DNA of 64,000 nucleotides from Membranipora membranacea (Eukaryota > Bryozoa > Gymnolaemata > Cheilostomatida > Membraniporidae). How positions within the stretch are numbered: position 1 is the first letter of the stretch; every line of letters starts with the position of its first letter. The notes under the pieces are model-generated. The model made no database searches. It was not told the DNA's origin and worked only from the letters and a program-made list of their open reading frames with translations. The stretch covers positions 2,559,501 to 2,623,500 of the forward strand of contig OU612070.1 of the NCBI GenBank assembly GCA_914767715.1, written 5' to 3'. A program made the position numbers and the translations under genes. Shown here piece by piece: positions 424-44,700 of this stretch.

Positions 424-637
424 GCTGGGGATGACCAATCTGAACATGGCATATCGTATAGAGTTATAGTGAAAGATCTGGTAGGAAATCTTCTCACAAA
501 CCAAACCAGAGTTCACGATCAAACTTGGTTTGCTGCAAATAATCTGTTCGGGAGCACAGTATATTCAGTAGAGATCACCACAGTTAACAGAAGAGGACCC
601 AATACTATGAATGCAACTCTTACAACAATTCAAATTT
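424..637 (+). CDS. Gene 1 exon: second half of a type-II FN3 domain
   Basis: 214 nt, phase 0 to 1. It has the FN3 pattern of strands C'-G, with YRVIVKD, the YSVEITTVNRRG Tyr-corner-like segment and an N-glycosylation sequon (NQT). It lacks the CGF..PGS..C signature of the other FN3 type. The acceptor is a pyrimidine run ending AAG. Compared with its copy at 37795-38008 it differs at about 23 of 214 bases, nearly all replacements. Confidence 0.8.
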
Positions 638-3600
638 GTAAAAATATATATGAATGAAATGATAGATATTATTGTAAACTATCACTATCATATTTTAACA
701 AACTTTAGCTGTGTTATTCCATCCACTGTTAACAGGTAGCCATAATTAGATTGAATATGTTCAATTTCTGTGAAATGGGGACAATTTTGCTGTAAAACCA
801 TATCAATCCGCTTTGCTGATTCTGCAACAAATAATTGATCTGCATTGGATATCTGCGCTGATGCAATTTCGCTAAAATAGAGCTAGATTTTCTTGGCTTG
901 TTCTGTGTGCATCCATGACTCTAATCAAAATTAATTTTGAATTTCTCTGTATTTCAGCACCAAATCAGCCACAAGATGTTTCATTTACTACAGTGAACTC
1001 TTCCTGTATACAGTTCCAATGGACAGCTCCTATTGGTGGTGGCAACATTGTTACCGGTTATATGGTAGGTGTGAATAAAAATGTTTGACACTATCACTTC
1101 TCCAACCGCAGTAAACAGTCTCTGCTTGGAAACCAAAATTCATTGAATTCGTTATACTTGTTCTTTTACATTTTTGGCTCATATGTAAGGGTTCGGAAGC
1201 TGTGCGCATTGTTGTATATCTCATCGTCGCTTTGTAAATCCAAATTTGGCGAAGATGCCATACAGCTATTCATTATCACTGTCTTTTCAAGTATTCCTGT
1301 GAAGGGCACCTGCCAATCTCTGGACTGAGTAATTCCACCTTCTCTCACACATCTTGTGGATACACCCCAGGGACAAACATCGCATGCTCACTGCAAGCTG
1401 TGGCTGATGGAAACAGATCAAGTGATGCAATCAAACGCACTGGTTACCTTCCTTGTTCAGGTTCGTCCAAAGGCTGACCATTTTACAATTAACATTATAA
1501 TGTCAATTTTTATGTCTTTTTGAGTGGATATGGGCAGGGCACGTTTAAGATCAAAGAGTAGAAAACCTTAAGAGGTGTCCGGGGGGATCGGTTGTTGAAT
1601 TAGGAATTACATTATTGTTACTAGAAAAAAATCCTTACAACCTATAGTCTATCATCCCATCATAATTTTGTCATGAGGGGTGGGGGGACTCAAATGTCAT
1701 GCTATGCTCTTGAGTAAATTTGAGAATTTGCGCTAAATTATCGAAAAACTACCGATATCCGCATTACTGATACAAAATTTTGTTATTCTTTGAAATTTTG
1801 CATGTTGATAGTCAGCACATGCTGTGCAGCTGCTAGATTTAAATAACTCAGAACATTACCTACTTGACAATCATATTTAAACTATTTTCTAAATTTCAAT
1901 AAACTATTCTGTTAGCCTTGCCAGCATCTCTGATCAGCACTAAATTAAATAGAACTATCAAATATTATTTTCATGTTATAGCACCACTGATCAAAGAGAT
2001 TACCACAGAATCTCTACCAATTGCTAAAGATAATGGTGAAATTGATTTTGAGACAACCGTCAACTGGGAGGTATGAGTTATTTTATTTGTAATTTCTGTC
2101 CTTAAGTATCAGGCACATTCAGTGTTGTGATCCGGTCAATACTGTCAAACTTGTTCAGAGGAATACAGTATAAAGTCTGTATTCTGTTACTTTTTTTTCG
2201 GGATTTTGTAGAGGTACACCATAATCAACTAAAACGTAATGTCCCTATTAGCAACCCAGGGAAAGTTAAAGCAGTTAAGGTACTATATTTGTTTGGCGCT
2301 TATCTAAATGCTCAAACTCTCCCCGGTTTGTTGGTTTTTGCGTTCCAGGGTGAAGTACTGTTGGCTGATAGTTGTATGCCATCTTTGCAACCAGCATTCT
2401 GAATTGGTACCTGATAGATTGATTGTCATTCCTTGTTTCTAACTTGTGATAAGTTAACCTCTTACCATCCTGTGAGGAGGAAGTACTTTATATGGATGAT
2501 TAGGATTAGAAGATTAGATGATAAGATATGCTGCCAGTTGATGGATGTGACACTTTTCCTAATACAATACAGGCGGTACTGATGATAGATACAAAAATCC
2601 TGTTTTGTTGTGCTCTCACCATAAATGTCCTGTTTTTTATTATCCATGCGGACAACATTTTTATCCCATTGCCACTTTTCTCATCATTCACTGTCATATG
2701 TGAACTGATTGACTCCAGTATAGAGCTGTCTTCCTTGTTTAATCTTTGTGAGCACCATGACAGGAGCCTGAAGTGTCCTCATATTTGCACACTTAAATTC
2801 AAAGTGGTTCCTTCTTAAGATAAGGTCACATTGTGATATAAGTGCTTTCCAATAGTTTATCCTGAATTGTGTGTCATCAACCAATGATAGTTTGTACCAA
2901 TACTACTGTGAAACTTAAATTTTTTGTTTGCAAGTCACAAAAAATAAAAGTTCCCAACTTCCTGCATGATCTTACTTGTCGTCTATCCACCCACAGTAAC
3001 CACCATAAGATGTATGTAGCCTTGACTCAATCCAGCCTCACTAAACCACAACAGCAGATTCCAGCATGTTTAACCAGAACAGTTTATCGTTGCTGTTATG
3101 TATTACAGTTTTGTTATTATTCTTTAGTAGAAGTCCTTTATGTTATCTATTACTTGATTGGTATTTCATTATTGTAAAGGCTCTTTTTATTGGCCTATTT
3201 TAATCATTCGTCTGCATCCTTTTTGTTAGTTGTATATTAGATGCATTGAATTGTACTATTGAGTTCAGTGATTAGATGTTAAACAAAGAAGATGCTTTGT
3301 TTAATAAGTTAAGAATAAATAAACTTGTTAGCTTAGGGTTTTAAAGCTAGCACAACCAAATAGATGTCCAATCCATGTACATCTCAATGGCGACGAGATA
3401 TAGTGATTTGAAGCCCACTGCTCAAGAAGAAACTGTGGAGTTGTCCTATCATAAGGTTTGTTGTCATGTTGTCATACATGTACATGTATATTGGTGTTGT
3501 CCTCTCTGCCCTGACCTATATATGACAGAGACTGACTTGACCGTGACCTTGATTGAAGAGACACACATGAGCACTTGTCTACTGACTTTCATGGTGAGTG

Positions 3601-6600
3601 GACTGCCTTATATCTTGCCATCCTGATAGAACCCAACTTCGCAACATGGTGTCAGTTGTGAGATATACTTAGGAGAGGTGAAGGTGAAGTGCTAGGAGAG
3701 GTGTAGAGGAGAAAGAGAGGTGTATAGGAGAGGTGAATGAGTAGGAGATAAGGTGTTATTGAGGAGAGGAGTAAGGAGAAAAAGGTGTGTAGAAAAGGTG
3801 TTTAGGTGAGTTACTAACTAGGAGTGGAAAGCCCTAGTTCAGGTGAGGAGGAAGTGTAGCCAAGGTGTATGAGAAGTGAAACATCCAAAAATCAAACAAC
3901 AAAAGATATTTTCCTCCATCTTTGTTCACAAATTTTGGCTGGAAATTTGAGTAAAAGTTTTCTTTGTGTTCTTGAATACAATTTGAACTTGAATTGCTTG
4001 AGTATACCCTAGCTTACTATTGTTTAAGTTGTACACTGGTGCCATGGCTAGTATCTTTGCTAGTCTACCTGTGTTTGTTGTAGACTCATCCAATGTCCAT
4101 GGGTCATTTAAGCGGTGGTCTGTTGAGTTTAATCTGGCTTTAAGAATGAAGTCGATTGAACTTGGCTATGACATCGAAGAAGTGACTACTGGCACTGGTG
4201 GTTCTAGAGTTACCGAAAAAGTGAGGGTGCCTCGCTTCGGTGAAGATGCAAAGCTGGCGTCTTTGCTCTGGTGTATGGGCAGTGATGCTCGTGAAGTAGT
4301 GTCATCGCTTGGTGTTGACTTGTTTTCCACATCTTTGGAGTTCTTAGATGTGTGGAACTTGTTGAGAGAACACTTTGAGCATGACGAGTCTGAGTATGTT
4401 AAGTTGGACAAGTTTGTTACCTGTCAACAACTTGACAATGAAGATGAACGCGCTTATCTTCTGCGTGTTGAATGACTGAGTAGGCAATGTGATTTCTCCG
4501 GTGGCAATGTCAGGGAGAGATTTGCATTGTTGATCGCAGTAAGAGGTTTGCGTAACTCAAAATTGAAGTTTGAGATGATGGCTGATGATGAGTTGAACTG
4601 GGTCAAGATCAACAAAGTTTTAAGGGCAAGACTAGCTGCGCAAGAGTCTTTGAATGCCTTAAATAGATCAGACCCGACTTATGCGCTGTCAGAGAGTAAA
4701 CAGGTCCCTGCTAAAATACCTGTTAAAGTTGAAGTACACGCTGAGTCTAGTGTAGTTCGTGATCCAATCAATGTTGTACCAAATGTTACTGTTATACAGG
4801 CGCATGTTGGTGAAGTGAAGTGTCGTCCTCACCGAGAGAGAAGTGATGAGAGTAGTGTAAGTAATACTTATCATGATGCTTATAACCATTCTAATCGAGG
4901 TTCTGACAACAAGAGATTTTGTAGTGACAACCATCGTTATAATGGTGATGGTGGGAGTGATCATGATGATTACCCTTCACCTGACCGTGAAAGGAGGTAT
5001 GTAAGTCATAGTAGTAGTCAGCATTCTGGCTGTTATATCTGTCATAAAAATGATCATATTGCGCGTTACTGTCCTGAAGGCGGGTGTTTCAGATGTCAAA
5101 GGATGTCACATCACCAGCAGGATTGTACTGATGTTTATAGATGTAGGTTTTGTTTGCGTGAAGGCGTCTCAGCAAGAGATTGCAGTTGTAGAGTAAATGG
5201 GAGCTCAGACCAGAGGTACAAAGAGCGAACTAAAAGACAGTCATGTGATGATCGCTCTCCACCTAGGCAAAGCTCAGGTAGTAGTGATAGTAATTGGCGG
5301 AGATAACTTCCCTCTGTAAATTCTACCCTAGTGAAGAGCTGTTGTCACCTTGTAAGTAAAAATACTTGTTTTAAGTTGACATCCTATCCGCTTTTCGTTA
5401 TTGCTTGTGTGGTTGCTGACATTTGTCGGTAGTCCCCGTAGTTGTGTGCTAACCCTGAACGTGGGCCACAGAGTATGAGTAAACATCCCTTTCTCAAAGA
5501 AAGGGCATGTGAAGTCTCTCAACCCTGTTAGGGTTATAGAGTATGTGTCAAAAAAACCCTTATAATAGTAAGGGCATATGGAGTTGTCCTATCATAAGGT
5601 TTGTTGTCATGTTGTCATACATGTACTTTGAACATGTATCTTGGAGTTGTCCTCTCTGCCCTGACCTATATATGACAGAGACTGACTTGACCGTGACCTT
5701 GATTGAAGAGACACACATGAGCACTTGTCTACTGACTTTCATGGTGAGTGGACTGCCTTATATCTTGCCATCCTGATAGAACCCAACTTCGCAACAGAAA
5801 CAGACTCAGACTTCGACTGCAGACCAGAAGGAAGTATTGTTCTAGGATGTTCTTTTTCATTCTATAGATTAAATTGTATGTTTTGTGCTCTTGTTGCAAC
5901 AGCACAGGTGCTTACTTGGTTGTAGTAAGCTCAGTAGGTCAAGGCTTCAAACACTAGGGACAACTAGGGCAGTTTTAACATAGACTAAGGTGTACTCAGA
6001 GCTTTTAGCAGGCATACTCAGGGTGCAATGTTTCCTTGGAGCTAGGAACTTGTTGGTGAGTGCTATTAGCTGGAGTCAAAATACAGTCTGTGTAGGCTTA
6101 TCTTTAGTGTAAGATAGTGAGTGTCAATCAAAATTGCTACTGCTGTGTATTGTGATATAGATCAGTTTGATCTTGATGACATGAAAATTTGTATTATACT
6201 CGGACAATCAACCACTATGTCATATATTAGGATCTCGAAAGGGGCTTCCCAGCCTTGCAGCTGCAAGGATTCTCAGATGGGCTATTGGAATAGCCGGATA
6301 TACATTCCAGGTGCAACACAAACCAGGTAGCAAGAATGGTTGTGCTGATGCACTGTCACGTTTGCCGCTAAAGAAAACGGAGACGAATCCCGAGATCATC
6401 AAATGGACACGGGAAGCTAGAGAGTGTAATACTGAAGTTCTCGCTTCACTCCCAGTAACAGCTAGACAGATTGCACGTCAGTCTCGTACAGATCCCATAC
6501 TTTCCAAAGTAATGCACTGTGTGAAAACTGGCTGGCCAGCAGTGTCTGAAGCAACACTGGAAGTTTATCATCATAAAAGGAATGAAATAACGATAGAAGA

Positions 6601-9600
6601 TGGCTGCCTTCTGTGGGGAAATCGCGTTATTATACCCAACAAACTGAGATTTAAACTTCTGGAGGAGCTTCACCAGGGTCACCAAGGCATTGTGAAGATG
6701 AAGGCACTGGCAAGAATTCATTTCTGGTGGCCTAAAATTGATAAAGAGATTGAGGCAGAAGTAAGGAAATGCTCACCATGTCAGCAGAATGCTGAAAGCC
6801 CACCTCAACTGTCCCACAACTCATGGGCATGGCCGGATCGACCATGGAGAAGGGTACATATAGACTTCGCGCAGTTTGAAGGAGATTACTACTTTGTCAT
6901 GGTAGACGCATTCTCAAAGTGGACAGAGGTTATCCTGATGTCAAGAGGTACCAATGCGGAGCGCACCATCGAAGCTCTGAGAAGTGTCTTCTCAAGACAA
7001 GGGCTATGTGAGGAGATCGTTGCAGACAACGGACCACCTTTTCCTAGCCTGGAATTACAGAAGTTTCTTCAGAAAAATGGAGTTAAGAGCATATTCTCAG
7101 CACCATTTCATCCATCATCAAACGGAGCCGCAGAAAGGTTTGTAAAAACATTGAAACGAGGGTTAAAGAAGAGCAACGGTAAGTTCTCTAAACTACATCG
7201 ATTGCATGAGTTTTTATTAGTGTACCGCTCAACACCTCATTCTTTGACTGGTCAAACACCCTCAGAAATGCTCATGGGCCGTAGAATTCGCACTAGGCTT
7301 GATTTGGTGAAACCGGATATGAGGGCTCGTATCACTCAAGAATCAGGAGGGGTGCAGCATCCCCGTGCGTTTGTTATTGGAGATCCAGTAATAGCTCGAG
7401 ACTATCGAAACATTAGGAAACCTGGGTGGTTATCAGGCGTAGTAGTTGCCAAAATATCACCTGTCACTTACAGCATACAGGTCGAACTGAGGGGCGAGTT
7501 GGTAATTTGGATAAGGCATGTAGACCAGCTTAAGGCCTGTGAATTAGATAATTTTGTGGAGGGAAAGGAGTTTGAAGTCAATGATAGAAGCAAATTTCTG
7601 TTTAGAAATAACATGTCATCTTCTTCTGTTGTAGATAGGGAGGTTGGCCAAAATCCAGCAGAGACTACATTTAACGAGAGACCTGAATCAGAAGAAACTC
7701 CCCCACTAGATTAGGCAGTCACCGGTGCCGCTGCCAGTACTGCGGTGGAGGGTCAGGAATTCACTGAGGTGCCAGCGGCCACACCAGCTCAACAGATAAG
7801 ACCACGTAGACAACGCCGCCTCCCGACTTTCCTTAAAGACTACGATATGACTGTTTAGAATCATTGTAGTTGATGTAATTTTATATAGTGTGGGAGAATG
7901 TTATGTATTACAGTTTTGTTATTATTCTTTAGTAGAAAGTCCTTTATGTTATCTATTACTTGATTGGTATTTCATTATTGTAAAGGCTCTTTTTATTGGC
8001 CTATTTTAATCATTCGTCTGCATCCTTTTTGTTAGTTGTTTATTAGATGTTAAACAAAGAAGATGCTTTGTTTAATAAGTTAAGAATAAATAAACTTGTT
8101 AGCTTAGGGTTTTAAAGCTAGCACAACCAAATAGATGTCCAATCCATGTACAGCTCAGTTGCGGTTGCTTTGTCTTGTTAAGAATTGCAATGAATTTGGA
8201 ATGCCTAACCTCATCATAATTATTAATGAGCTAATTGAAATGTGTAAATCCACCTGCGCTGTTAACATACCAGTAATAATTACCTGTCTAGCCACAAAAG
8301 TATATGTGTCTAAAAATAACTTACCCTCTGATATAACCACTATTTGCCCTTAATTGGTTATGCTGATGATTATTTTACCTCTCTTACTGTACATATGAAT
8401 TGTTAAATGACCAGTTTTTCTCTCATTAGGTGAACAGTCATTGCAATAATGTTAACTATGATCTCATAGTTAAGGACAGAGATGACCAAACTGTGATTCA
8501 AGAAGTCAACTACACCGATATCAGTGTGATAATCATTAACCAGGCTGCATGCTCTAATTATACTCTCAGTCTCACTGCTACCAACAATGAAGGCTTCTCA
8601 TCACAAGACACACATGAATGGACAACTACAACTAAAGGTCCAATGATACAGAATATCCGAACTGTTCAATCAACTCATGGATGATTTGTGGATTGCCATC
8701 TTTAAAATCGGAAACTAATAAAAGATGGCCAAACCAATTTAACCAAACAAATCACTCCTCAAGTGCCTTTCTAATTACTTTATCTATAACATCGATGACA
8801 GCTGACAGGCTGATTACAAGTGTTAAATTTTGATGTTTTGATGATTTTGTGAATACAAATGCCTGTGGCATTAGTAGATTATTAAGAAATCATTAATATC
8901 TATTCATCTAAGCAATCTTGCGTTTGTTTACATCAGCATGGTATCCCAAATCCTAACACTGAAAATTGAGATTCACTCTAATCATTCTATCTTCGTTCTC
9001 ATTTAGTGCCAAGGCAGCCAACCTCAGTAACTGTTACAGAGCGCAACGCTACTTGTGTTAAAGTCAGCTGGACAGAATCTGATGAAAATGGATGTCCAAT
9101 ATCAAACTACACTGTGAGTCTTTTTTATAAACAACATCTCTCTGTGTGGATTTTATCCATTGTCACCGTCACATTGATACATGCTCATCGTTGCATACAC
9201 ACATCAGGGACCCTCGACTAGTTCGCTCTGAATTAAGCTGTATTATCTTGTGTCACACTGTACCAATGATGCCCCAACTGTATATAATTACAGCCCCCTA
9301 CAACATATAATGAATGGAGATTTTTTCACCCAAAAAACTCTGAAGCAATGTGTCAAGGGTCAGCTGTTTTAATAATGCAGTGGTTTTACACATCGTAATT
9401 TCACTAACTTCAACCCGACTTTCCAGGCTTATATTTTTTAGTTGTCTTATCATTGTTCTTGCATTATCTTCAATTACCACGTGCCTGAAATGGCGCCTCA
9501 ATGGGGATGATACTAAGTATCATTCCAATCTCATGCTATTGCCTCATTCCTATTCTCAACTTATCTGAATGCCACTAAAAGTATTTTTTCAAAGTATTAC

Positions 9601-12600
9601 TATGCATGGTCATTTATTACTCAGTATGTGGAAGGTTTATTTTGGGTACTTGTGATGTGGATGTGGCGCTTTAGTTTTTGCCTTTTAAGGTATGAAGGCC
9701 TAATGTCTAATTAAAGATTCTTGACCATGCTGTTCTCCAGCAGGTTGCTGTATTGGCTTCTAGAACCTAAAACTTGTCTAACACGCATATCATTCCTTTT
9801 TGAACATCTGATGTAGTTCAACTGCTCGAGCTCTGACGGCCATTTTGTCACAGATACTGAAACAGATCCTGCTCTAACGTCACCTGAAGAAGTCTGCGGG
9901 TTTTATCCTGGCTCACTGGTAACATGTGTAGTGTATGCTTCTAATGTAGCTGGAGTTGGAGAAGCTAAACAGAATGATACCAATCTCAGCTGTATAGGTA
10001 GGTTGGATCATGTTTATGCTTATTGATTTGTAGGAGCATTAAAAATGAGTCTGATGCTCTTTTAGACAGTTACTGTAGTTGTCCCTCCAAATGAACAGGG
10101 AAGACGATAACGCGTTAAACTGGACACAAACTTTATGAATTTCTCGTCTTTTAATCTTCCAGGATTATTAGATAATTTTTTTAATTGATTGTTTTGATTA
10201 TTCTGACAGATCCTACAGCAGCAGTGATCAGTGATAATATGACTGAAACTTCAGAGCCTATTGGTGATAAGGAGAGAATCAAACTCAGATTTGACTGGGA
10301 GGTATGTACTCGTTGTAAATTTTGTTTATGACTTCCGTAAAAGGTACATATTGTTTTATAGGAATGATTATCGAAAAGTGGTTTGTTATTAAAAAACTTA
10401 TTACTCACACCAGATGAAATATTGACATTTTTAATGGATCAGTCTCATTTGCATGCAGGAGTCAGAAGTTAACTGTTATGGCAAAGTGACGTATGAAGTC
10501 AATGTGACAGACACAACAAACACCTCAGAAGTACGCAGTGAAAGTACAGAAGACCTGTTTATAGAGTTTACTGATCTAGGCCCCTACAGGTCTTATTCTA
10601 TCAGAGTCACAAGTAAAAATGATGGAGGCAATGAAGTAACAAGTAATCCGAAAAGCTACAAAACTATGGAGCTAGGTAATTTATTTTCCTGTTATACCAA
10701 CACTAAGCTGTTCTAGCCTGATGCCAGATGGTCCGCACAGTTTGCAATCAGAGCTTTGTACTACTGTCGTGGCACCATATTTTGACCAGATTCTCTTTTC
10801 AGACAATTCTTATATCATGTTTGTCAATACTGTGACGAGGGTGTATGTGTTATTTTCAGGTCAAGAGGTTTATTTGCGTTTCAGGTCATAAATATCTACG
10901 TAAATTTTAATTATTCAGACGACAAAAATAAATTTGATACAAAGTCTAAATGATAATGATTAATTAGATGTTGACTGACAGACACCTAACAGCCAGCGAT
11001 TGGGTGATTGGCTGACTGGTTGACTGGCAAAATATATAAATATGTTAAATATAGTATTTACTTGTTTAAGATTCACACGTACCATAATTTTTCCTGCTAC
11101 AGCTCCTTATGACAAGCCCAGAAACTTCACTATAGAGACTAACAATTCCTCTTGTGTAGATCTACAGTGGAGAGTTCCTGATTATACTAATGGCGAAATA
11201 CAAAATTACACAGTAAGTTTAAATGAGTTTAATTCAATCTCATCTATGTGCCTTCAGCTGGTTAAAAAACCTGTGTATCAAGATGCCTTACCTTGATACC
11301 CAGTTAGAGCAACACCAACCCAATAATGGGGGGAACAAACTTGTTCAAAGTTGAGTGTATTTGCATTTAAGCCTCAGATAACAATTGATTATCTTGGCAT
11401 TTTGAACTCACTGGTTTAAACTGCAAAATAGCCCTTAGTTGTTTTTTTTTAGATTTATTGCATAAGTGAGAAAGGCAACCAAACTACGCACACTGTCGGT
11501 GATACATCCTCTACTCAACAATGTGGATTTTACCCTGGGTCCAAAGTGTCATGCGGTATAGTAGCGTACACCTCAGTAGGCCCTAGTCCACCAGCATTAG
11601 GCCAAGTAACTCTGTCATGTACAGGTGAGTGTGATCCTAACTTTATTCACATTTTACTGTGAATTTTCAAAATTGAAACCTAGTTTATATATATATTGTG
11701 AATGTGCTGTATTTAAATATTAATATTATATGAAAGTATCTCTCGACACAATGTACCGTATATGCTATTATATAGTCAATGTACAATGCAGGACATAATG
11801 GAGGGGATCTCATGCAATCAAAGATACTTCCCCTCTATTGATAAGTTTCATACACAACGCTTTGGATAAAGAGTGCAGATATGAAAAAAAAATCATATGT
11901 TACTATAGATCCTGAAACTCCACGGACTGTGAATGTAACAGAAACCGTAGAGCTTATTGATGGAAAGGAGAGGATAAAGCTGAAGTTTCAATGGACTGTA
12001 AGTGGTTGCATCGCATCATTTGTTCCAAAGCATGTTTTCCGCCATGTAGAGCTTAGCTATGAGTTTCTCAAAATATTTGTTCTTTTGAACGCATCATGAA
12101 GAATGGCTTGGGATAGTCTGAAATCAGACAGATTCCTGAAAAAAAATTTTAAAAATTGATGCACAATGATTTGAGACAATTACTTTCACAGACATGTTAC
12201 GTCAAGCAGGATGCAGGCTGTTTTGAAGAATCATCTACATTATATTCTTCACTCCCATCAAGGGCTCTCATTACACCACTGAATTGACTATTACTCAGGG
12301 GTCAAGAGCATATACATGATAAGAGCGCTAGTGAACTTGTGACTTGTAGGGACAAAGAACAGAATCTGCGACTACATACCATGTGTCCCTCACAGATATG
12401 ATCAACACATCGGTGGTCAAAACAGATTTTACTGGAGATCTTTTTTACGAGTTTGGCGACCTTGAGCCTTTTACCAAATACTCGTTTGTAGTCATTGCCA
12501 GCAACGATGGAATAGTCAACTCGTCTTCTAGTCATCCAGAGAAGCATCAAACCCAAACACTAGGTAGGAGGCAAAACTGCACATGAATATTAACTGCCTA

Positions 12601-20700: not shown

Positions 20701-21158
20701 TGTGGCTGTTTCACAGCGGTTTAGACCCTTTGCCATTCAATGGGAGTTGTGCCTAATTGGCCATATCTGCATAGCTTTGTGCGGTACCGGGCTATTGTTT
20801 TTTGTGTCCAATTATCTGCACTGATGGATTAATTTGGCGAGCAAATTCCTCAAGCCTTTAGTTGCCCTGTGAGCCTTGGTGTTTGAGGTTTTCCTCACAA
20901 GCTCAGTAAACTTGAGTTGCGTATAAACTTTAACTATATTTATCTATTTTTCTGGGCAAAGGAGATATTTGGGGATTTACTAACGGAGCAAAAAGGTATG
21001 TTATAAAATAAATTCTGTTTTCTGTAGGTTAAAATAATTCATGTCCAAGTTCACTTGACTTAATATCTTTTTATTTCTCGGTACATTCAAAATTAATTAA
21101 TAGGGTTTAGATTTGTGTTTATTTGATCTTTGAGTATATTGTTCCTTATAGTTTGCGT
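20701..21158 (+). repeat. Truncated 5' LTR of the BEL/Pao element
   Basis: Aligns base for base with 24628-25086 (few substitutions) and stops abruptly at GTTTGCGT. The last 195 bp of the LTR present at 25087-25281 are missing here, which marks the deletion breakpoint. Confidence 0.88.
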
Positions 21159-21234
21159 AGAAGGTATAATATCAAGGGGTGAGGCTGAACTAGTGCCAAA
21201 ATCAGAACTCGAAAGCCGGGAGGGTTGATTTTTA

Positions 21235-24209: not shown

Positions 24210-24627
24210 TAGGGATACAATGTAAATCCTAGACTTTTATCAGGACTCATGGAGGAGCAACTCCAAATTGTTGCTTTTTCATCCCACCTCATGGTGTTTA
24301 TTTTTCACTCGTTAAGCTTGGCTCTGCACTAAATCATTATTGTATTGCATTGCATTTATTATCATTTCATACAGCGATAGGCACTTCTCATTTGTATTTA
24401 TTCTCGGTAGTGCCAGTCGCTGCCTCAATAACTAGCCGTTAATTAATTAAATTGTTTGCTCGATCAAACCTCTCGCATGTCAGTTTTTGTATTTATGATT
24501 GGTGTCGCTAAATGTTTGGAACGAAATGAGAAATATCCTAGGCTTCTTTTTCTCTTTCTGATCAGTTCTTCCTTGCGACCTTCAGTCATGGTTGATGGGA
24601 GAAATCACAAGGTGATTTGGCCGGGAG

Positions 24628-25281
24628 TGTGGCTGCTTCACAGCGGTTTAGATCCTTTGCCATTTACTGGGAGTTGTGCCTAATTGGCCATAGCTGCATA
24701 GCTTTGTGCGGTGCCGGGCTATTGTGTTTTGTGTCCAATTATCTGCACTGATGGTTTAATTTGGCGAGCAAATTCCTCAAGCCTTTAGTTGCCCTGTGAG
24801 CCTTGGTGTTTGAGGTTTTCCTCACAAGCTCAGTAAACTTGAGTTGCGTATAAACTTTAACTATATTTATCTATTTTTCCGGGCAAAGGTGATATTTGGG
24901 GATTTACTAAAGGAGCAAAAAGGTATGTTATAAATTAAATTCTGTTTTCTGTAGGTTAAAATAATTCGACTCCAAGTTCACTTGACTTAATATCTTTTTT
25001 ATTTCTTGGTACATTCAAAATTAATTAATAGGGTTTAGATTTGTGTTTATTTGATCTTTGAGTATATTGTTCCTTATAGTTTGCGTTAAATTGAATAGTT
25101 AATTATTGACGGCATTTTTCTTGAACGAGGCACATTTTTATGCACCACATTAATTGCATCATTTTCCATTCCAGTTTCACGGAACCTTCGGGGATTAGAA
25201 TAAAACCTGTGATCCTGTGATACTATAAGTAATCTCTCAAATCTCGTGTGAATAAATCAAGAAGCCTTGTAGTCCAGAACA
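24628..25281 (+). repeat. 3' LTR of the BEL/Pao element
   Basis: Starts TGTGGCTGCTTC after a purine-rich CCGGGAG. It contains AATAAA-type motifs and ends ACA immediately before target duplication CCTAT. Confidence 0.85.
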
Positions 25282-25286
25282 CCTAT

Positions 25287-29534: not shown

Positions 29535-29690
29535 TGATTGATAGTGTGGTAAAGTTAACTGTAATTGAGCAGAATTCAGCCTAGACAAAGCTGATATCAT
29601 CAGACTTAGAGGGAAGTGCTACTGAGCAGCAGCTGCCTCAGTAACTTAACCAGCGGAAGGGGATCTACAACGGAATGGGAACACAGGAAC
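29535..29690 (+). promoter_or_regulatory. Promoter / 5' UTR block of gene 2, conserved upstream of gene 3
   Basis: About 155 bases directly before the ATG align with 54864-55014 before the gene 3 first exon. Shared words include TGATAGTGTGG, GAAGTGCTAC, CTGAGCAGC and GGAATGGGA. The blocks end at the same distance from the ATG. No TATA box is evident. Shared non-coding sequence of this kind marks the paralogous transcription start and leader. Confidence 0.55.
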
Positions 29691-29751
29691 ATGTCTTCTA
29701 CAACTAAAACAGCCATTACCATCTGGATATTTCTTCTTCTCACCCACGAAG
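29691..29751 (+). CDS. Gene 2 first exon: signal peptide
   Basis: MSSTTKTAITIWIFLLLTHEG has a short basic start, the hydrophobic core AITIWIFLLL and a small-residue end. The in-frame ATG at 29616 is upstream in what aligns with untranslated leader of gene 3, so 29691 is preferred. It ends in phase 1 at GAAG/GTAAGA. Confidence 0.82.
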
Positions 29752-32700: not shown

Positions 32701-35700
32701 TATGTTATCTCTCCTGCGACAGATCAATATCAAAATGATGATTCACTAACAGTTTAACAGTAAGCCTTACTCTAGCTTACTTAGGACAGAAACTAGGCTG
32801 CTATACTTACACCAGAAAATATCACAGCACAGTTTTGATCATAGTTAGCCTAGTCAAAGATACTTAAGTGTTAATCTGTGACAGGGGAGATAAACACTCT
32901 AGCATACTTGCCAAGTAATCTAAATTCAAAAGTGGGAGAATTCAATTTACAGCGGTACTGCACGGAATCGCGGTGCTTCGAGGGTGCAAAGCACCCGAGC
33001 GATCCACTTTGGGGTTTTGGGCAGTGTAAGCCCCCAATGGGGACTGGGGTAGAGCCACGGCTGCTGATACTCTGAGAACGCTTCTAGCCACTAGGAAGAG
33101 CTAAAAACGTATTCTTGATCCCAAATAGTTTCATGTTTGTACTTTGTACTGGTACTAAAATATCAAACTGAGATGAAATGCACTTTTAATACTTACCATC
33201 AACACATGGGCCCCTGGGACTCTTCAACAAGTGCTTGGATAGAGTTACTAAGAAATTGCGAAAGGGCTGTTTTTTCTCAAATCTGGAGGAAATAGTGAGA
33301 CTTACAAAAAGTGGGAAGTCAACAGAATTTCATGTGAAAATTTGGAGACTTGGCAAGTATGCACTCTAGACCCTTTTAGACCCAGGGTTTTTGCACTCCA
33401 AACACGGTTACATCATTCAATAACGTCCTCATGCGAGTAAACTTAGCTTTTTTGGTAATATTGCTAAAAAGTTACTTTGCTATGAGCAACGGTTGTTCAG
33501 GGCAAGAGAAACCTTAATACTCACTCGTCTGAGCATTAAACGAAAATAGCTATGTTCCTTGAAAAAATAGAAATTATGATCTCTCCTTGGGCAACTTTGA
33601 ATGTTCTTTTGATAAAAAATGTCCAAGTTTTGTTTAGCTTTTTCCTGTTCATACCATGATTTCAGCACCAAACAAGAACTACAATGTAGCTAGGTATAAG
33701 CCTGTAACCACGACTCCATCAACACCTCATCTTGACCATCTGGTTGACGGGATGAACTTTTCTCTAGAATCTTGTCCAAACCGATCAGATACTGTGCAGT
33801 GGGAGTTAGATTTGCTTGACACTTATTTGATCCACCTTGTTCGTCTTGTCAAAGGGGACTGTGGTAAGCAGAATGATCACTGCGAACTCTTATTAATATT
33901 GAATTTCATTTTGTGAGTCTGTGAGTCTGTTATAATATAAAACCTCTCCTCTAAGTGAATGGTCTCCTCTCCACTGAAAGTCTTGTCTCTTCAAGTGAAT
34001 GATTGAAAAAAAATCCGGTATTTATGTTATGGTAATTGAGTCACCACTATCTTCCACCAGCTTTTTTAAATAAAATGCATGATTGTGTTTAGTTATGGAT
34101 ATTTCTTTATTTTCGGTCATGTTTCCCAGCAACCTTGAAACTCATCACTTAGCAACGCATTGCACTGCATGAGTCATAGGTTGTTGCTTACCATGTATTA
34201 GAGGCTCAGTGCTTTGGTAATTATGTCATGCTTTATTTTTTCTGCCATCTTATTACACCTATCCACCTAATAATAAATGTGCCACAGGGATAGCATATTA
34301 TATACTATATACACTTGTCCCCAAGACAAACTCATGATATGATTCAATGGTGAACATACATCAAAGCCAATGTGAATTCATAAGCCAGACCCCAAAGCTG
34401 AACCTAGAACAAAAAGTGATATCTTTTGTGAATCATATTTGAATGCTGAGACAATCACACAACATACATCTAATCCATGGTCTTGTTTTATTCCTCAAGG
34501 TGAGATTCTAGTTGAAAGCCTGAATTTGATGTTGAAAAATGCTTCAGGTTCCAGTTTTCCTGTAACTTCATTGAACCAGCAACCCACCACATTGATGTTT
34601 ACTGTGAATCTCTACATAGTGCCTCACTGATATCAATAACGGCTTTTGCCCAGGAAATTGGAAAAATATCAGAAATCCAAGTTTTTGGATCACGTAAGTA
34701 AATTGATTTTCCTACACTCAGGACAGTCCCAATATCTTTGTTAAACAGGGACATTTATCAATTATATCTTGGTCCTTGTGAATCACAGTCGACAAACATT
34801 TTATTGTAATTATCTATTTTAAATTCAAAACCAACAGTTAAGACTTTTGTTAAAGGACATCAAAATTGATAGGTTTTTAACTTGTTTTAATTGCTGAGGG
34901 TAGTTATATGAGATAATGCAGATCATATTAGTGTTTTAATTGGTTTATAAGGAATGTTAGTGGGAAGAGGCCAAGAGTTATTTCTCAGAACGAGACCGCA
35001 AAACTGTAGCTATATCGATCAATTGCGCTATTGAGGGTGGTGTCTTACTATTTTTCTCAGATGTATGAAAGATGATCAAATCTTGCTCTCTCAAAATACA
35101 ATATGTACGTCCATTGGTGCAGATAAAACATTCTGTTAATAAAACATCAATGGCACTTTATTTAGAGCCAACTTATATGTTACCTTACATCCTTCAGGAG
35201 CGATCAATTATGCCCGCAATGGAATAGCAACACAGTCAAATCCATATGCCACTTTTCCTGCATCTCGAGCTAATGATGGTACAAAGGGCGCTGGGAGTGC
35301 TGATATAACACATACTGCACAAAGTGAAAATCAGTGGTTGAAAATAGATCTCGGTCGTCGAATGTACATGGTAGAGATGGTAGTGTACAACAGAGTAGGA
35401 GATTGTTCCGTAACACCATGTTGTGAGTACTATGTGTTGTGTGTCGAGTTCGACATGTCCTTACTATCTTCAATGCACTTACTTAGTTCCGTTATAAAAA
35501 ATCATAAGTCAACATGCCCTCAAGGTTTTGATTTGAGTTCATGATAGTAACACCCATGTCCAACTACATGGCACTGCACTGGACAATAATAAAAATGCAG
35601 GAAAGCAATTGTTGTATGGAAATAGACAAAAGCAGACTTGGCCTAGACTAATGGAGGCTGAGGAAACTCTCATATTTGCTATGCTATTATATTATAGCTG

Positions 35701-38700
35701 ATAGAATGCAGGACGCCAGCTTTTACACAACAGAACTTAATGGAGACAGTGCAGGTGATCCTGGCTCTTCTGATTGGACACTGTGTCATTACAATAAGGT
35801 TCCCATTGGCGACATGGACTACATACAGTGTGACGACAACCGCCAGCCGTTGACACAACAAATGGCTGTTAAAGTTGGGTATAACGAGGGTGTTCAACTG
35901 AGAGAATTCGAAGCTTACGGACTTGGTAAGAACTACCGCTAAGTTGTGTAATATTTGTTTTTATCCATGCATTTAATACAATTATGGTGACCCATTCATT
36001 TTGCCAATGTGTGAGCTTGATCTATGCGATGCATATAGTTGACATGCATGTAGTGCCTATAAAATGATCCAGAGATAGACAGGGAAATTTATTACCTCAA
36101 GTACTGTTTATCAAAATTAATCAATTTTCTAGATTATTGTTTGAATCCAACTGATGACCAGGACAAAAGATGTCATATCAACCTGAACTGGTTCATCATT
36201 CAATCTAAACTTTGTTATAAGAGAAAATTTGATTTTGCTCAATTTTCTTTAGAAATTTTTGAAACTCGTATTTTTTAGAAAATAGACAGTATAAAAAGAG
36301 CTTTTTGTTCTAGAACCAGGAACATTCAATGACGTTCCAAGAGTCAGTCTCACGTTCAGCAACTCAACAGATTTAGTGATGTCTCTATATCAGTGGACTA
36401 ACAATATGACCGGCGATGTACCTCCATCAAGGTACATCATATTATCAACTTCTTGTTGGATTAACTCAACCTGATTGGATCAATGCTATAGCTCTTCCGA
36501 TTTATTTGCCTGTGAATCTTTTTTCCTAACAATGCCGTTGTATTTTCAGCTATTCAATTTACCAGAAAACTGACACGGAAAGTTTTGTGAAGATCACCAC
36601 AATACCACATGAATTGTCTGCTGATACTGTAGATATACCTATTGGTGGTCTTATAGCAACAAGTGGGTATGAATACAGAGTGACTTCGAGCCATGGGGAT
36701 ATCCCCTACGGAGATGTCAACACTGTGGGTTCATCTTTAACTGTCCCAGCTTGTAAGTCTTTATTTTTTATTCATAAATAGTTGACATAGGGACTTAAGA
36801 TTGACTGCTTATTTTGATAATAATGAGCCTTTCCTAGAATTGCTTAGTATACTTGCCCTGTTTCATGAGAACTGGTGTAGCATAATTCAGACTCTGTTAC
36901 TATCTGTTGGTTGCTTATACCATGTTGTAACTGCTCAGAGTACACCCTTGAAAATGCATTACTTTTAAGAGTCCAAATTTGTATTGTTGCTTAGATATTA
37001 GTTTCCGACATAAATAGCATGTTTTCTTTCTGATTTCCAAATCATTTTCTAAAGAAATGTTTATCACGCTTTGCTCTGATGCGATTGCCTTTTATGTTAG
37101 AGGTCAAACACTACTGCATAATTACAGCAAAACCTGTCTTGTCCCTTTTTCTCCACTGTCTGTGTGATGTTGTTACTGTCTATGTTTAATATTGGGTTCC
37201 TTTTGCTAAAACAAGGTGGAGGATATAAAACCTGTCATTCAACATTAATTTTTTTACAATTTCTCATAGAGAAACACCACACCACTTGCAACCACTGCTA
37301 TACTAATTTCTCTATACCTAAGCCCTGTTTGAAAATCAAGGTGTTACAAAACATCTCTGGGGTCATCATTATTATAGAGTGTTTCCTCCGCCCACTTAGG
37401 CAATGGGTTGAAAGAACAACACAGCACGGTTTCTGAGCTCTTGATTGTGATGATTAGGTTTTAAAGGATTTGGTTGTGACCCCTTTTTGATTTGATTCAG
37501 TACCTCCAGATGTAGAAGATATAGATACAACAAATCAGACAGAAATATACGATGGGGGTTTTTATTCAGTAGAAGGTATGATTCCAGCCATTTGTCATCC
37601 TAATAAATATTTCCTCATGACTGTTACATGGACAGTTTAATTCATAATCAATCGCATTGTAAATTTGATTGTCAGATTGTCATTGACTGAAGATGTCTGA
37701 TACAAGGAAAGCAAGAATTTTTCGGCATTAGCAGATACTGGATTAAAAGAAAATATTGTTCATGAACGAATAATGCTTTCATTTTACGCTTAAGGCTGGG
37801 GATGACCAATCTGAAAGTGGCATATCGTATAGAGTTATAGTGAAAGATATGGCAGGAAATATTATCACAAATCAAACCAGAGTCTGCAACCAAACTTGGT
37901 TTGTTGCAAATAAGCTATTTGGGAACACAGTATATTCAGTAGAGATCACCACATTTAACAGAAGAGGACCCAATACTGTGAATGCAAGGCTTCCAACAAT
38001 TCAAATTGGTAAAAATATATACGAATGAAATGATAGATATTATTGTAAACTATCATATTTTAACAAACTTCAGCTGTGTTATTCCATCCACTGTTAACAG
38101 GTAGCCATAAGATTGAATATGTTCAATTTCTGTGAAATGGGGACGATTTTGTTGTAAAATCATATCAATCCGCTTTGCTGATTCTGCAACAAATAATTGA
38201 TCTGCATTCTCTGCGCCGATGCAATTTCGCTAAAATAGAGCTAGATTTTCTTGGCTTGTTCTGTGTGCATCCATGACTCTTATCAAAATTAATTTTGAAT
38301 TTCTCTGTATTTCAGCACCAAGTCAACCACAAAATGTTTCATTTACTGCTGTGAACTCTTCCTGTATACAGTTCAATTGGACAGCTCCTATTGGTGGTGG
38401 CAACATTGTTACCGGTTATATGGTAGGTGTGAATAAAAATGTTTGACACTACCACTTCTCCAACCGCAGTCTCTGCTTGGAAACCAAAATTCATTGAATC
38501 CGTTATACTTGTTCTTTTACATTATTGGCTCATATGTAAGGGTTCGGAAGCTGTGCGCATTGTTGTATATCTCATAGTCGCTTTGTAAATCCAACTTTGG
38601 CGAAGATGCCATACAGCTATTCATTATCACTGTCTTTTCAAGTATTCCTGTGAAGGGCACCTGCCAATCTCTGGACTGAGTAATTCCACCTTTTCTCACA

Positions 38701-41700
38701 CATCTTGTGGATACACCCCAGGGACAAACATCACATGCTCACTGCAAGCTGTGGCTGATGGAAACAGAGCAAGTGATGCAATCAAACGCTATGGTTACCT
38801 TCCCTGTTCAGGTTCGTCCAAAGGCAGACCAATTTACAATTAACATTATAATGTCAATTTTTATGTCTTTTTGAGCGGATATGGGCAGGGCACGTTTAAA
38901 ATCAAAGAGTATAAAACCTCAAGAGGTGTCCAGGGGGGGGGATCGGTTGTTGAATTAGGAATTACATTATTGTTACTAGAAAAAAATCCTTACAACCTAT
39001 AATCTATCATCCCATCATATGTCATGAGGGGTGGGGGGACACAAATGTCATGCTATGCTCTTGAATAAAGTTGAGAATTTGGGCTAAATTATCGAAAAAC
39101 TACCGATATCCGCATTATACTGATACAAAATGTGTTATTCTTTGAAATTTTGCATGTTGATAGTCAGCATATGCTGTGCAGCTGCTAGATTTAAATTACT
39201 CCTTGGGCTCATCAGAACATTACCTACTTGACAATCATATTTAACCTATTTTCTATAAACTATTCTGTTAGCCTTGCCAGCATCACTGATCAGCACTAAA
39301 TTAAATAGAACTATCAAATATTATATTCATGTTATAGAACCACTGATCAAAGAGATTACCACAGAATCTCTACAGATTGCTAAAGATAATGGTGAAATTG
39401 ATTTTGAGACAACCGTCAACTGGGAGGTATGAGTTATTTTATTTGTAATTTCTGGCCTTAAGTATCAGGCACATTAAGTGTTGTGATCCGGTCAATACTG
39501 TCAAACTTGTTCAGAGGAATACAGTATAAAGTCTGTATTTTTGTTATTTTTTTCCGGGGTTTTGTAGAGGTACACCATTATCAACTAAAACGTAATGTAC
39601 CTATTAGCAACCCAGGTAAAGTTAAAGCAGTTAAGGTACTATATGTGTTTAGCGCTTATCTAAATGCTCAAACTCTCCCCGGTTTGCTGGTTTTTGCGTT
39701 CCAGGGTGAAGTACTGTTGGCTGATAGTTGTATGCCATCTTTGCAACCATCATTCTGAATTGATACCTGATAGATTGATTGCCATTCCTTGTTTCAAAAT
39801 TGTGATAAGTTAACCTCTTACCATCCTGTGAGGAGGAAGTACTTAATATGGATAATTAAGATTAGAAGATTAGACGATAAGATAATTTCTATCAGGTTAA
39901 ATATTTTCTCAGGGGTCAGGCTTCAGTGTTGACAGTTAATGGATGTGACACTTTTCCTCATACAATACAGGTAGTACTGATGATAGAAACAAAAATCCTG
40001 TTGTGTTGTGCTCTCTATATCTGTCCTGTTTTTTTTATCTATGCTGACAAAATTTTTAACCCATTGCCGCTTTTCTTATCATTTATCTGTCATCTGTCGA
40101 CAGATTGACTCCAGTGAAGTGGTCTTCCTTGTTTTATCTTTCAAACACGATGACAGGACAGGAGCTCTAAGTGTCCTCACATTTTCACACTTTAATTCTA
40201 AGTTGTTCCTTCTTTAGATAAGGTCACATTCTGATGTAAGTGCTTTGCAATAAATGTTATCCAGATTTGTGTGTCATTTAACCAATGATAGTTTGTACCA
40301 ATACTACTGTGAAACCTAAAATTTTTGTTTGCAAGTCACATAGAATAACAGTTCCCAACTTCCTGCATGATCTTACTTGTCGTTTATCCACCCACAGTAA
40401 CCACCATTAGATGTATGTAGCCTTGACTCAATCCAGCCTAACTAAACCTCAACAGCAGATTCCAGCATGTTAAACCAGAACAGTTTATCGTTGCCATTGC
40501 TTTGTCTTGTTAAGAATTGCCATGAATTTGGAATGCCTAACCTCATCATAATTATTAATGAGCTAATGGAAATGTGGAAATCCACCTGCGCTGTTAACAT
40601 ACCAGTAATAATTACCTGTCTAGCCACAAAAGTATATGTGTCTAAAAATAACTTACCCTCTGATACAACCACTATTTGCCCTTAATCTGTTATGCTGATG
40701 ATTATTTCACCTCTATGCTTGTCTATGTGAACTGTTAAGTTACCAGTTTTGTCTCTTATTAGGTGAGCAGTCATTGCAATGATGTCAAATATGATCTCAT
40801 AGTTACGGACAGCGATGACCGAACCATGTATCAAGAAGACAACTATACCAGTACAAGTGTGAATATCACTAACCAGGCTGTCTGCTCTAATTATACTCTC
40901 AGTCTCACAGGTACCAACATCGAAGGCTTCTCATCACAAGACACACATGAATGGACAACTCCAACTATAGGTACGATGATATAGAATATCAGAGCTGTTC
41001 AATTAACTCGTGGTGATTTGTGGATTGCCTTCTTTAAAATTGGAAGAAAATAGAGGATACGATTTTCCATCCCACTCAGTCATACTGAATATCATAGAGG
41101 TATTATATATAATATTATTATTTATAACAATCAACAACTCATAGATATGATAACCCTATGATGTATGTACACAGACAATAGATACTATCTTAATGATGTT
41201 TGAATGATGAGATTAAGATTAAGATTTTAAATAATTCAGTAATGCTGAAGCCTTCGAAGTCTGCTGAAGTCTGTGATGCTAACCTTTTACACCTGATAGT
41301 CTTGTTTGTTTTTGAATTGACATGAATCAGTAGGTTATATACTGTCTGGTGTAACAGTTTAGGCCAAACAAAACAAAACACTCCTCAAGTGCCTTTCTAA
41401 TTAATTTATAGATAACCTCAATGACAGCTGACAGGCTGATTACAATTCCTAATGGTGTTAAATTTTGATATTTTGATGATTTTGTGAATGCAAATGCCTG
41501 TGGCATTAGTGGATCATTAAGAAATCCTTAATATCTATTCATCTAAACAATCTTGCGTTTGTTTACATTATCATGGTATCCCACAATCCTAACCCTGGAA
41601 GTTGAGATTCACGCTAATCATTCTATCTTCGTTCTCATTTAGTGCCAAAGCAGCCGACCTCAGTAACTGTTACAGAGCGCAATGCTACTTGTGTTAAAGT

Positions 41701-44700
41701 CAGCTGGACAGAATCTGATAAAAATGGATGCCCAATATCAAACTACACTGTGAGTCTTTTTATAAACAATATCTCCCTGTGTGGATTTTATCCATTGCCG
41801 CCGTCACATTGATACATGCACATCTTTGCATACACACATCAGGGACCCTCAACTAGTTTGGAAATAAGCTGTATTATCTTGTATCAAACTGTATTCATGA
41901 TGCCCCAACTGTATATAATTACAGCACTCTACAACATTTATAATGAATGGAGATTTTTTTCACCTGAAGAACTCATTTTTCTGAAGCAATGTGTCAAGGG
42001 TCAGCTGTTTTAATAATGGAGTGCTGTTTTGCATAAACATTGTAAATTCACTAACTAACTGGACTTAGGCAATATTTGTCCCTTAATTCTGTACTGTGTC
42101 ATGGTTTATGGGACATAGATACAAAATCACTGTGTACCATTGTTCTATACATCTCTACTAGTACATGAACATCACCAAACAGCTTGTATCAACTCTACTA
42201 TTTCCCAAAAAGTCTTCTGAGCTGGTAATAACATATTATAATTATCAGCATTCTGACAGAGAAGGCAACTCCTAATATTATTGATACCAAAGCGAAATAA
42301 CAAATTACACAGTAAGTGGGTCCACAGTAGCAGGTCTGCTTTGTTAGGGATTTCCATGACGAGAGGCATATGATTTATACAATTATTATTTATATTGGTA
42401 GACTTTCTGGGAACACATTACATTAATTTCAAAATCTGAGGTTTGATATTTTTTCACTGCTGCTGGTGGTTAAAATCCAAAACAATGGATAGTTTCATCA
42501 GAGGCAATACATCACCAAGTCTACAAAAGACGATGATATATATGCTAGGATGGTCGAAAGATATGTCCAATATGAATACTTCATGTTTGTAAAATAAGAA
42601 TAATGAAATGACTCATTTTGATTTTTCAAGAGAAATTGTCACAGTGTTTCATTCAATAAATATTGTTCCTCATTGTCTAATACTCCCATATCAAAATCAG
42701 AGGTACATATTGGACAAAACCAAGAGAAAAACCATCTCATCGCAAGCTTATATCGAAAATACCCTCTCGGTGCATTAATGCTATCTTTTAAATATTTCCA
42801 CTAATAGAGAATATATATATATATATATATATATGTAATTACTTTTTAGTTAATATGGTATGCTCTTCAATTTGAGGTGTTTGAAGTGAACGTTTTCTGT
42901 AACATTTTTGGTTTTTTCGTTAAAATATTGCAGTACACATGCTCAAACCCTGCTGGTCATGCTGTCAAGAATACTATGTTAGCCGCTGCCCTAGTACCAG
43001 TTGAGGCTTGTGGTTTTTCTCCAGACTCAATGGTCACATGTAAGGTACACGGTACTAATCTAGCTGGAGATGGAGAGGCTATGGAATATCAGATCAATCT
43101 CGGCTGTAAAGGTGTGTCATACATCAATCTGATAGCCCCACTTTTCAGTGAAGGAGACAAATCCCTATTTTTCGATACTCAAAGAGAAGGAAAGTTGACT
43201 AAATATATAACCTCTTCATCTACTTTCAACCCCACCTTTTTCTCTGCCACCAACTTGTCAGCTCTTTTAAAAAAACTTGATAGCCAATTTTTTTAATATT
43301 GCAGCTCCATATTTTAAGCCTATAGGCTTTGAATTGAGGGATATTGGCTCGTTCTGTGTCTTCATGCGATGGAATGCTTCTGAGTATGAAAATTGTGAAA
43401 TCAAAAGCTACACGGTAAGTATTACCAATACCGTCGATTTCCATAGTATTTTCATATAATTATTTTATTAAGTGTTCCTTTCATATATTATACCAGGGAG
43501 GGTTTGAAGAATGGAGCAGTAAAAAATTGAACACTCAGAACTCAGTATATGTTTACGTATTGAAAATGTTTTGATTTTCCAGTCCGCTTTTAGGCATTTT
43601 GTAAAGTTAAGTAAGGTAAAGTTATGATAGTATTACCCAAGCCTAAACACATATTAATCAATCTATATTTACACAATAACACCTAACGCGTAATATGTGC
43701 ATTTCTACTCTACCTAACTCAATTTACAGATTTCAGGTTTGAACTCATACCATTACCACAACACTTATTTAAGTCTGGATGGCTAACTCCGCCATACTTT
43801 CTCTACTGTGTTTAGCTTTATTCATTAATCAAAACATAAGCATTTGAATAGTTTTCAGATTTTAAATATTTTCTAAATCTTGATAAATAATTAGAAGACA
43901 TTATTTTTCAAAATCTGATGTTTCAGTTTACTCAGTTGCTTTATCATACGCCGCTTTCTCTCTTGTAAACACTCTGCAGTGTAGAAAAACCATGAATCTC
44001 TTTCGATTTAATTCAGTTAGTAATTGTAGCATTGGGTGGCAGTTTACACCTTGGTTGAAAGGAAATCCTGAAACTTGCAACTTTACTCACTTGAAATAAA
44101 TTTAGTTGCATAACAAGCAGCAGTGTTATTTCTATTAGAATCTAATCGATCAACATAATAGCAAAAGGTAGTTTCTTATCGTAATTCCAATGGAAGGCAA
44201 CTTCACAACCTTTCACACAATAGTCGACAAAATGTCATGTCACAGTGAACTTCTATCTCCATATATGTTACCTTCCCTGCTTATACTTTCTGATGTCGTA
44301 TTGAGCTGATCACAGCAGAATTTGCACCTTTTTCAATTTGTTAGATTGTTTGTAAAGACACGAAGGGGACACAATCTACTAACATGAGTGGTGAATCATC
44401 TTCGACTCACCTGTGCGGATTTTCCCCTGGATCTTTAGTGTCATGCAATATCACTGCACACACCCCAAAAGGCCTTGGCCCCACAGCTACAAGTGACGCC
44501 AGTCTGCCTTGCACAGGTGAGTTTTTTTGTAGGTATGACAATGATCGGTAAATTTATATTGCCTTCAATCAATTTCGATTTTGGTTTTATACTTTCAAAT
44601 GTAACTTGGTGATTACAATTCAGGTGCATATAATATAATTTTTCATTATCACTATGGTTCCATGCCTCGAACGAGTGGTCCACTCCCATATTGAACGATG

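Follow-up and report, generated by a model that had tools for sequence, protein, structure and literature searches.

Two tandem receptor genes of the bryozoan Membranipora membranacea have diverged as a patchwork, best explained by gene conversion or unequal exchange within their family rather than by faster evolution of exons as a rule, a reading to which we give a probability of roughly 0.83. The genes, gene 1 (G1) and gene 2 (G2), lie in a window of 64,000 nucleotides (positions 2,559,501 to 2,623,500 of contig OU612070.1, here C6, in assembly GCA_914767715.1; positions without a contig name are those of the window) and, judging from their sequence, are members of a tandemly arrayed FN3 receptor family in which a membrane span precedes a tail bearing four tyrosines; the other copies on C6 are labeled P2 and P4 to P10. 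The evidence consists of a patchy divergence profile, a switch of relationship between adjacent segments, raised silent-site divergence, and ratios of nonsynonymous to synonymous rates (dN/dS) not significantly above 1. In this one assembly (339 Mb, 18 contigs), exon E1 plus intron 1 occurs in at least 7 copies and the block around exon E5 in at least 10, all on C6 and the latter within 0.43 Mb (2.49 to 2.92 Mb); both counts are lower bounds. Multiple similar copies in tandem, one of the marks of concerted evolution, are present.

Tracts of roughly 0.2 to 2 kb, differing by segment, would have been exchanged or homogenized between members by non-allelic gene conversion, unequal crossing-over, or both. 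G1 and G2 would share a recently homogenized tract that begins in intron 1 and reaches the early part of intron 4 (about 3% divergence, with exons and introns indistinguishable), while older sequence would have been kept or imported at E1, around E5, and in the middle of intron 4 (10 to 22%, exons and introns alike). Intron divergence between the two genes would then be low because it is the product of homogenization. That most tracts stem from conversion and not from crossing-over is our inference, as are the tract ends and the choice of donor copy.

Divergence between G1 and G2 follows tracts

Positions 369-3093 and 8158-9421 of G1 align with 37740-42066 of G2, the G1 side being split by an insertion at about 3094-8163; an earlier note on this window had proposed such a duplication (385-9405 versus 37745-42060), and the alignment bears it out. 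The same note held that exons outrun introns in this block, and its raw counts stand: E1 differs at 23 of 214 sites (about 23 claimed), E5 at 28/208 (about 28 claimed), intron 1 at 8/307 (about 7 claimed), and the four other exons, put at 3 to 7%, at 7/107 (E2), 6/169 (E3), 3/89 (E4), and 5/107 (E6). Silent changes had been set too low, at about 4 in each of E1 and E5; averaging over codon paths gives 5.5 and 7.5, beside 16.5 and 20.5 replacement changes. Silent sites in both exons exceed the intron rate of the homogenized tract (one-sided p = 0.02 for E1 and 0.0006 for E5).

The generalization drawn from these counts does not hold. Summed over the block, exons differ at 72/894 sites (8.1%) versus 217/3040 (7.1%) for introns (p = 0.38), and the two 100-site windows with the most differences (21 and 22) are intronic, in intron 4 at 2655-2806. 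Three of the four near flanks of E1 and E5 are as diverged as the exons themselves: 11/55 5′ of E1 (369-423), 12/54 5′ of E5 (8376-8429), and 19/99 3′ of E5 (8638-8737), the fourth being 1/54 3′ of E1 (638-697). Together these flanks differ at 43/262 sites versus 51/422 for E1 and E5, and farther 5′ of E5 (8166-8375) the count falls to 6/210. Between G1 and G2, E1 stands out against its 3′ intron; E5 rises above neither near flank. Within tracts of low divergence, exons differ at 16/365 sites versus 31/1066 for introns (p = 0.18), and within tracts of high divergence, the figures are 51/422 versus 106/694 (p = 0.16). The profile (in which E3 was taken one base too long, as also in the segment distances and in the recombination, tree, and family pN/pS data below) is patchier than expected by chance: the variance-to-mean ratio of differences per 100 sites, 3.74, was reached in 0 of 2,000 shuffles. 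The longest stretch of identity, 97 sites, is of ordinary length (0.138 in shuffles).

The same balance holds in the wider family. Over four independent sister pairs, exons differ at 97/3469 sites versus 322/11329 for introns (p = 0.95), totals that omit E6 and intron 5 of P2 and all of intron 6; with E6 and intron 5 of P2 restored, they become 108/3576 versus 399/11607. Neither the block totals nor the sister pairs support exon-specific acceleration as a rule.

Relationships change between adjacent segments

Distances by segment were compared in detail for eight copies (P8 being represented by E4 to E6 only), with the two most distant, P9 and P10, added later. In introns 1 to 3, G1 and G2 are 2.3 to 3.4% apart and both are 6.6 to 10.2% from P5, P6, and P7; in intron 4, G2 lies 2.3 to 4.6% from those three copies, and G1 lies 8.7 to 10.0% from them and 6.8 to 7.6% from G2. 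The reversal takes place between neighbors: G1-G2 and G2-P5 distances are 3.4% and 10.2% in intron 3 versus 7.6% and 3.1% in intron 4a. Likewise, E1 of G1 is closer to P5 (6.5%) than to G2 (10.7%), and its intron 1 is closer to G2 (2.6%) than to P5 (6.6%). P6 and P7 differ by 0 to 1.1% from E1 to E4; their distance is 3.0 to 3.8% in intron 4 and 3.3% in intron 5, with 8.7% in E5 between them. The pair P5 and P7 differs by 8.9 to 11.9% in E1, intron 1, and E2 and by 0.4 to 1.2% over the stretch that starts with intron 4b and ends with E6. With two exceptions, at the 3′ boundary of E1 and at E5 of the P6-P7 pair, divergence at silent sites and in introns changes with the tract and not at exon boundaries.

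Formal tests on seven of the ten copies (P8, P9, and P10 left out) agree in large part. The pairwise homoplasy index (PHI) detects recombination in the whole block (p = 0.001), in E5 (p = 0.041), in intron 3 (p = 0.003), and in intron 4a (p = 0.001). In approximately unbiased (AU) tests, the foreign tree is rejected in four of six cross-comparisons among three segments, and the data from intron 1 to E4 reject the trees of both other segments (p = 9e-13 and 2e-6). Conflicting relationships between adjacent segments, a further mark of concerted evolution, are found, the conflict at E1 being one of distance only.

Copies P9 and P10 (C6:2791001-2796000 and C6:2871901-2876900) supply a tract the size of one exon. 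They differ from the other copies by 33 to 36% in E1, 19 to 25% in E2, and 30 to 34% in E4; E3, amid introns diverged by 35 to 41%, is 8 to 14% from the seven other copies that bear it. Farther downstream P9 and P10 come closer again (E5, 8 to 14%; E6, 2 to 9%). Silent divergence is 0.12 to 0.23 in E3 versus 0.26 to 0.54 in E1, E2, and E4 (pairs with G1, G2, and P6, and with P8 for E4; E1 of P10 was started one base early in the distances, and P10 is left out of the E1 silent-site comparison). E3 in these copies is an exon-sized homogenized tract; purifying selection that acted on the protein alone would have left silent divergence unreduced. The earlier note had also offered conversion directed into exons: conversion is well supported, but in the form of regional tracts that span exons and introns, with exon-sized events occurring at E3 in P9 and P10 and probably at E5 in P6-P7.

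Several results weigh against the reading by conversion or exchange. On its 3′ side, the E1 patch stops almost where the exon does; PHI gives no recombination signal inside E1 (p = 0.41); and the tree from intron 1 to E4 is not rejected for f0 plus E1 (p = 0.475) or for introns 4 to 5 (p = 0.195), so that the switch at E1 depends on distances, not topology. The limits of the high tracts and flanks were, moreover, set after the profile had been viewed. Finally, P6-P7 shows the very pattern that the earlier note described, with E5 (18/208) above introns 4b and 5 (29/898; p = 0.002), and over the four sister pairs E5 (38/832) exceeds intron 4b (21/1016; p = 0.003) and is borderline above the two introns 4b and 5 combined (87/2806; p = 0.05). 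In P6-P7, silent sites of E5 are raised as well (5/49), and the excess seems to extend about 150 bases into intron 5. E5 may therefore be mildly special. E1 is not above intron 1 in the sister pairs (p = 0.21).

Constraint and selection on the exons

Between G1 and G2, dN/dS is 0.89 to 0.99 in E1 and 0.68 to 0.79 in E5, depending on kappa, with uncorrected ratios of 1.03 and 0.86; values of 0.89 to 1.03 and 0.68 to 0.86, near or below 1, fall in the range that the earlier note itself had named as refuting its reading, and run counter to the diversifying selection that it had proposed for these exons. The family mean ratio of the proportions of nonsynonymous and synonymous differences (pN/pS) is 0.92 in E1, 0.72 in E2, 0.52 in E3, 0.60 in E6, and 0.94 in E5 (without the frameshifted P5; 0.91 with P5 kept and its gapped codon skipped). 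E4 gives 1.0 to 1.4 on very few changes, and the exons from E7 to the tail give 0.33 to 0.79 (with 2 to 6 copies per exon). The pair P4 and P6 stands at 0.61 overall, 0.85 in E1, and 0.59 in E5; this total is without E13 and the tail, the start used for E13 of P4 having no preceding AG and its splice site being unsettled. Maximum-likelihood (ML) codon fits (fixed nucleotide trees, one scale factor, 7 to 9 sequences, no within-exon recombination assumed; P9 and P10 left out of E1 and E2, and P5 out of E5) estimate omega at 0.79 for E1, 0.98 for E5, 0.60 for E2, and 0.44 for E3, of which E3 alone differs from 1 (p = 0.012). Comparisons of models M1a and M2a give p = 0.38 for E1, 0.083 for E5, 0.39 for E2, and 0.62 for E3; sites with a posterior above 0.8 under M2a (codon 8 of E1, codon 36 of E5, and codons 6, 8, and 20 of E2) come with no significant gain in fit. 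In none of these tests is dN/dS significantly above 1 or a class of positively selected sites supported, with few sequences and hence low power; the codon models, M1a/M2a and ML omega, give positive selection no significant support.

Rates so near neutrality could also arise if G1 and G2 were dying copies whose exons drift at the intron rate, a contribution that would add to the mosaic without replacing it and that we put clearly short of even odds. Both genes look disabled in A0, the exon before E1: in G1, A0 (C6:2554024-2554121, upstream of the window) carries an in-frame stop, and in G2, it is 17 bases shorter than that of P4 and out of phase, P4, P5, and P6 being open there. A weak alternative donor is possible at 37635 in G2 and would preserve the frame. 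If the A0 exons are used, both genes would be impaired, which fits the near-neutral exon rates; P5 has a 2-base deletion in E5, and omega of E1 and E5 does not differ from 1. Against such decay, 17 of 17 in-window G1 exons are open with consistent phases, pN/pS between G1 and P4 is 0.62 overall, and all four tail tyrosines are conserved in P4. Copies that are open from A0 to the tail (P4) or to the membrane exon (P6) still show pN/pS of 0.85 in E1, and relaxed constraint alone cannot set a 2% intron beside a 20% stretch.

Unlikely, though compatible with conversion and exchange, is diversifying selection on E5 and perhaps E1, the C-terminal halves of type A FN3 domains, in which converted or mutated variants would be kept and homogenization selected against, leaving the exons as islands of divergence (of the Innan/Ohta type). 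These exons have the highest family pN/pS among exons with many changes, the others lying at 0.33 to 0.79; E5 exceeds intron 4b in the sister pairs and both flanks together in P6-P7, which leaves room for selection on converted variants; its replacement and silent changes number 10 and 1 in G1-P2 and 5 and 0 in G2-P4; and M2a fits it weakly better, naming codon 36. Nor do the raised silent sites argue against it, as conversion combined with selection is reported to lift silent divergence too (PMC3966226). But no dN/dS ratio is significantly above 1: pooled over three of the four sister pairs (P9-P10 was not split into silent and replacement changes), E5 shows 28 changes by replacement versus 6 silent ones (ratio 1.46; p = 0.26), and E1 shows 10 versus 5 (0.71). 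The intronic peak at 2655-2806 equals or surpasses those in the exons, E5 is no more diverged than its immediate flanks between G1 and G2, and E1 does not exceed intron 1 in the sister pairs. An assembly artifact or collapsed alleles, conceivable where similar tandem copies are hard to assemble, is very improbable given copies about 14 to 430 kb apart on one 29-Mb contig at 80 to 98% identity and an intron 4 insertion in G1 alone.

Comparison with known gene clusters

Divergence of this form has precedents among tandem receptor families. Clustered protocadherins of vertebrates consist of cadherin repeats, a single large variable exon being joined by splicing to constant exons common to the cluster; unlike them, each gene here has F5/8C-like, FN3, membrane, and tail exons of its own. 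The Sp185/333 products of sea urchins are a different kind of protein from the FN3 receptors described here. The allorecognition loci of Hydractinia and Botryllus are clusters of membrane receptors with signaling tails, as this array may be; they have proven polymorphism and a fusion phenotype, whereas the C6 array is known from the sequence of one assembly. Protocadherins are also tandem cell-surface genes in which conversion homogenizes one part of the ectodomain and the rest stays diverse (PMC3966226). The RHCE/RHD duplicates (Innan model) similarly show an exon-located divergence peak in otherwise homogenized duplicates, tied there to an exposed and selected region (PMC3966226); the peaks here are also intronic. 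The Sp185/333 immune cluster shares clustered, rapidly diversifying, similar genes (PMC5103432). Among literature titles and the starts of abstracts, with partial coverage, no title matched an F5/8C-FN3 receptor array of this kind.

That the array encodes self/non-self or immune receptors, with exon-scale conversion shuffling half-FN3 modules, broken copies acting as donors, new specificities arising, and E5 forming a diversified surface, would be a long shot. The comparison of G1 and G2 illustrates how a two-copy contrast can mimic exon-targeted selection when introns are homogenized, and it locates an array with an exon-sized homogenized tract (E3) and one exon-centered difference (at E5 between P6 and P7), which a survey of polymorphism could probe; the family may deserve such a population test. 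If its members turned out to be polymorphic and genetically tied to the result of grafting, they would have a bearing on how self-recognition arose, but the present data demonstrate neither.

Organization of the genes and their surroundings

The 17 in-window exons of G1 (Table 1) join at AG/GT sites to encode 859 residues and a stop, with phases alternating 0/1 as far as the membrane exon. Pfam fn3 matches the product over five stretches (131.3 bits; cut-off, 25), and every FN3 domain is divided between two exons. The nearest solved structures by sequence are FN3 portions of Roundabout, contactins, and others, matches that say only that FN3 domains are present. The membrane receptor reading comes from the hydrophobic exon and the four-tyrosine tail as read from sequence, signaling capacity being predicted at most; P4 has the only other tail compared.

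Upstream, the signal-peptide-like and F5/8C-like peptides of G2 recur, at the peptide level, upstream of G1, P4, and P6; recurrence of upstream and 3′ peptides was sought in C6:2440001-2700000, C6:2719931-2731300, and C6:2914546-2923100, and the gene counts are partial. Four single F5/8C-like exons scanned against Pfam F5/8 type C gave scores of 28.0 and 26.4 (cut-off, 27.8) and, for two, no match. A simple repeat that codes SPSPSP in one frame lies between these exons at 32327-32611. Past E6, G2 departs from the G1 pattern, with other exons at about 48141-49234 that appear to form an alternative C-terminal type; against Pfam, two of these pieces had no match and one had a weak match only. The same exons recur at C6:2512513-2513570 near P8 with 83 to 93% protein identity.

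Table 1. Features of the window, by position
Feature	Positions	Strand	Remarks
G1 E1	424-637	+	second half of FN3 type A, phase 0 to 1; AG/GT, open frame; 23/214 vs G2
G1 intron 1	638-957	+	in tract homogenized with G2; 8/307; 6.6-9.9% to P5, P6, P7
G1 E2	958-1064	+	first half of FN3 type B
G1 E3	1292-1460	+	second half of FN3 type B; exon-sized tract in P9/P10
G1 E4	1982-2070	+	first half of FN3 type A
Intronic divergence peak	2655-2806	+	block maximum; 21-22 per 100 sites
Insertion in G1 intron 4	3094-8163 (approximate)	+	retroelement open reading frames (ORFs); absent from nine other copies compared
Divergent patch	8376-8823	+	end of intron 4, E5, start of intron 5
G1 E5	8430-8637	+	second half of FN3 type A; 28/208 vs G2
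G1 E6	9007-9113	+	first half of FN3 type B
G1 E7-E15	9817-13663: 9817-9997, 10210-10301, 10459-10675, 11103-11212, 11453-11624, 11909-11997, 12350-12563, 13055-13170, 13492-13663	+	more FN3
G1 membrane-span exon	14550-14718	+	hydrophobic stretch by eye; also in P4, P6, P2
G1 last exon	16521-16674	+	cytoplasmic tail, four tyrosines, stop
G2 first exon	28275-28391	+	probable signal peptide, by eye; 3′ end approximate
G2 F5/8 type C-like exons	31305-31535, 31855-32073, 33668-33862, 35197-35406, 35700-35924	+	limits are those of the peptides; splice sites provisional
G2 A0	37501-37575	+	5′ of E1; length 17 bases below that of P4, and out of phase at shared donor
G2 copy of E1	37795-38008	+	
G2 copy of E2	38316-38422	+	
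G2 copy of E3	38643-38811	+	
G2 copy of E4	39338-39426	+	
G2 copy of E5	40763-40970	+	
G2 copy of E6	41643-41749	+	
Degenerate further copy	59507-60525	+	E5-like, membrane-span, and tail exons in shifting frames

The degenerate copy is not among the ten copies of the E5 block. The insertion in intron 4 of G1 carries an integrase core and internal repeats (3094-3392 versus 7899-8163, 86.7% identical; 3436-3646 versus 5579-5796, 95.9%). A Pao-type element at 20701-25086, with Peptidase_A17 (ORF 21258-23222) and DUF5641 (ORF 23226-24206), is bounded by 459-base direct repeats that are 96.3% alike. ORFs for RVT_1 reverse transcriptase lie in and around G2 and between the genes (45872-47590, minus strand; 57903-58766, plus strand; 18282-18731, minus strand). 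Toward the end of the window are an ORF with a THAP domain (61258-61443) and a tandem repeat of three copies of a 404-base unit, about 99% identical (61838-63053).

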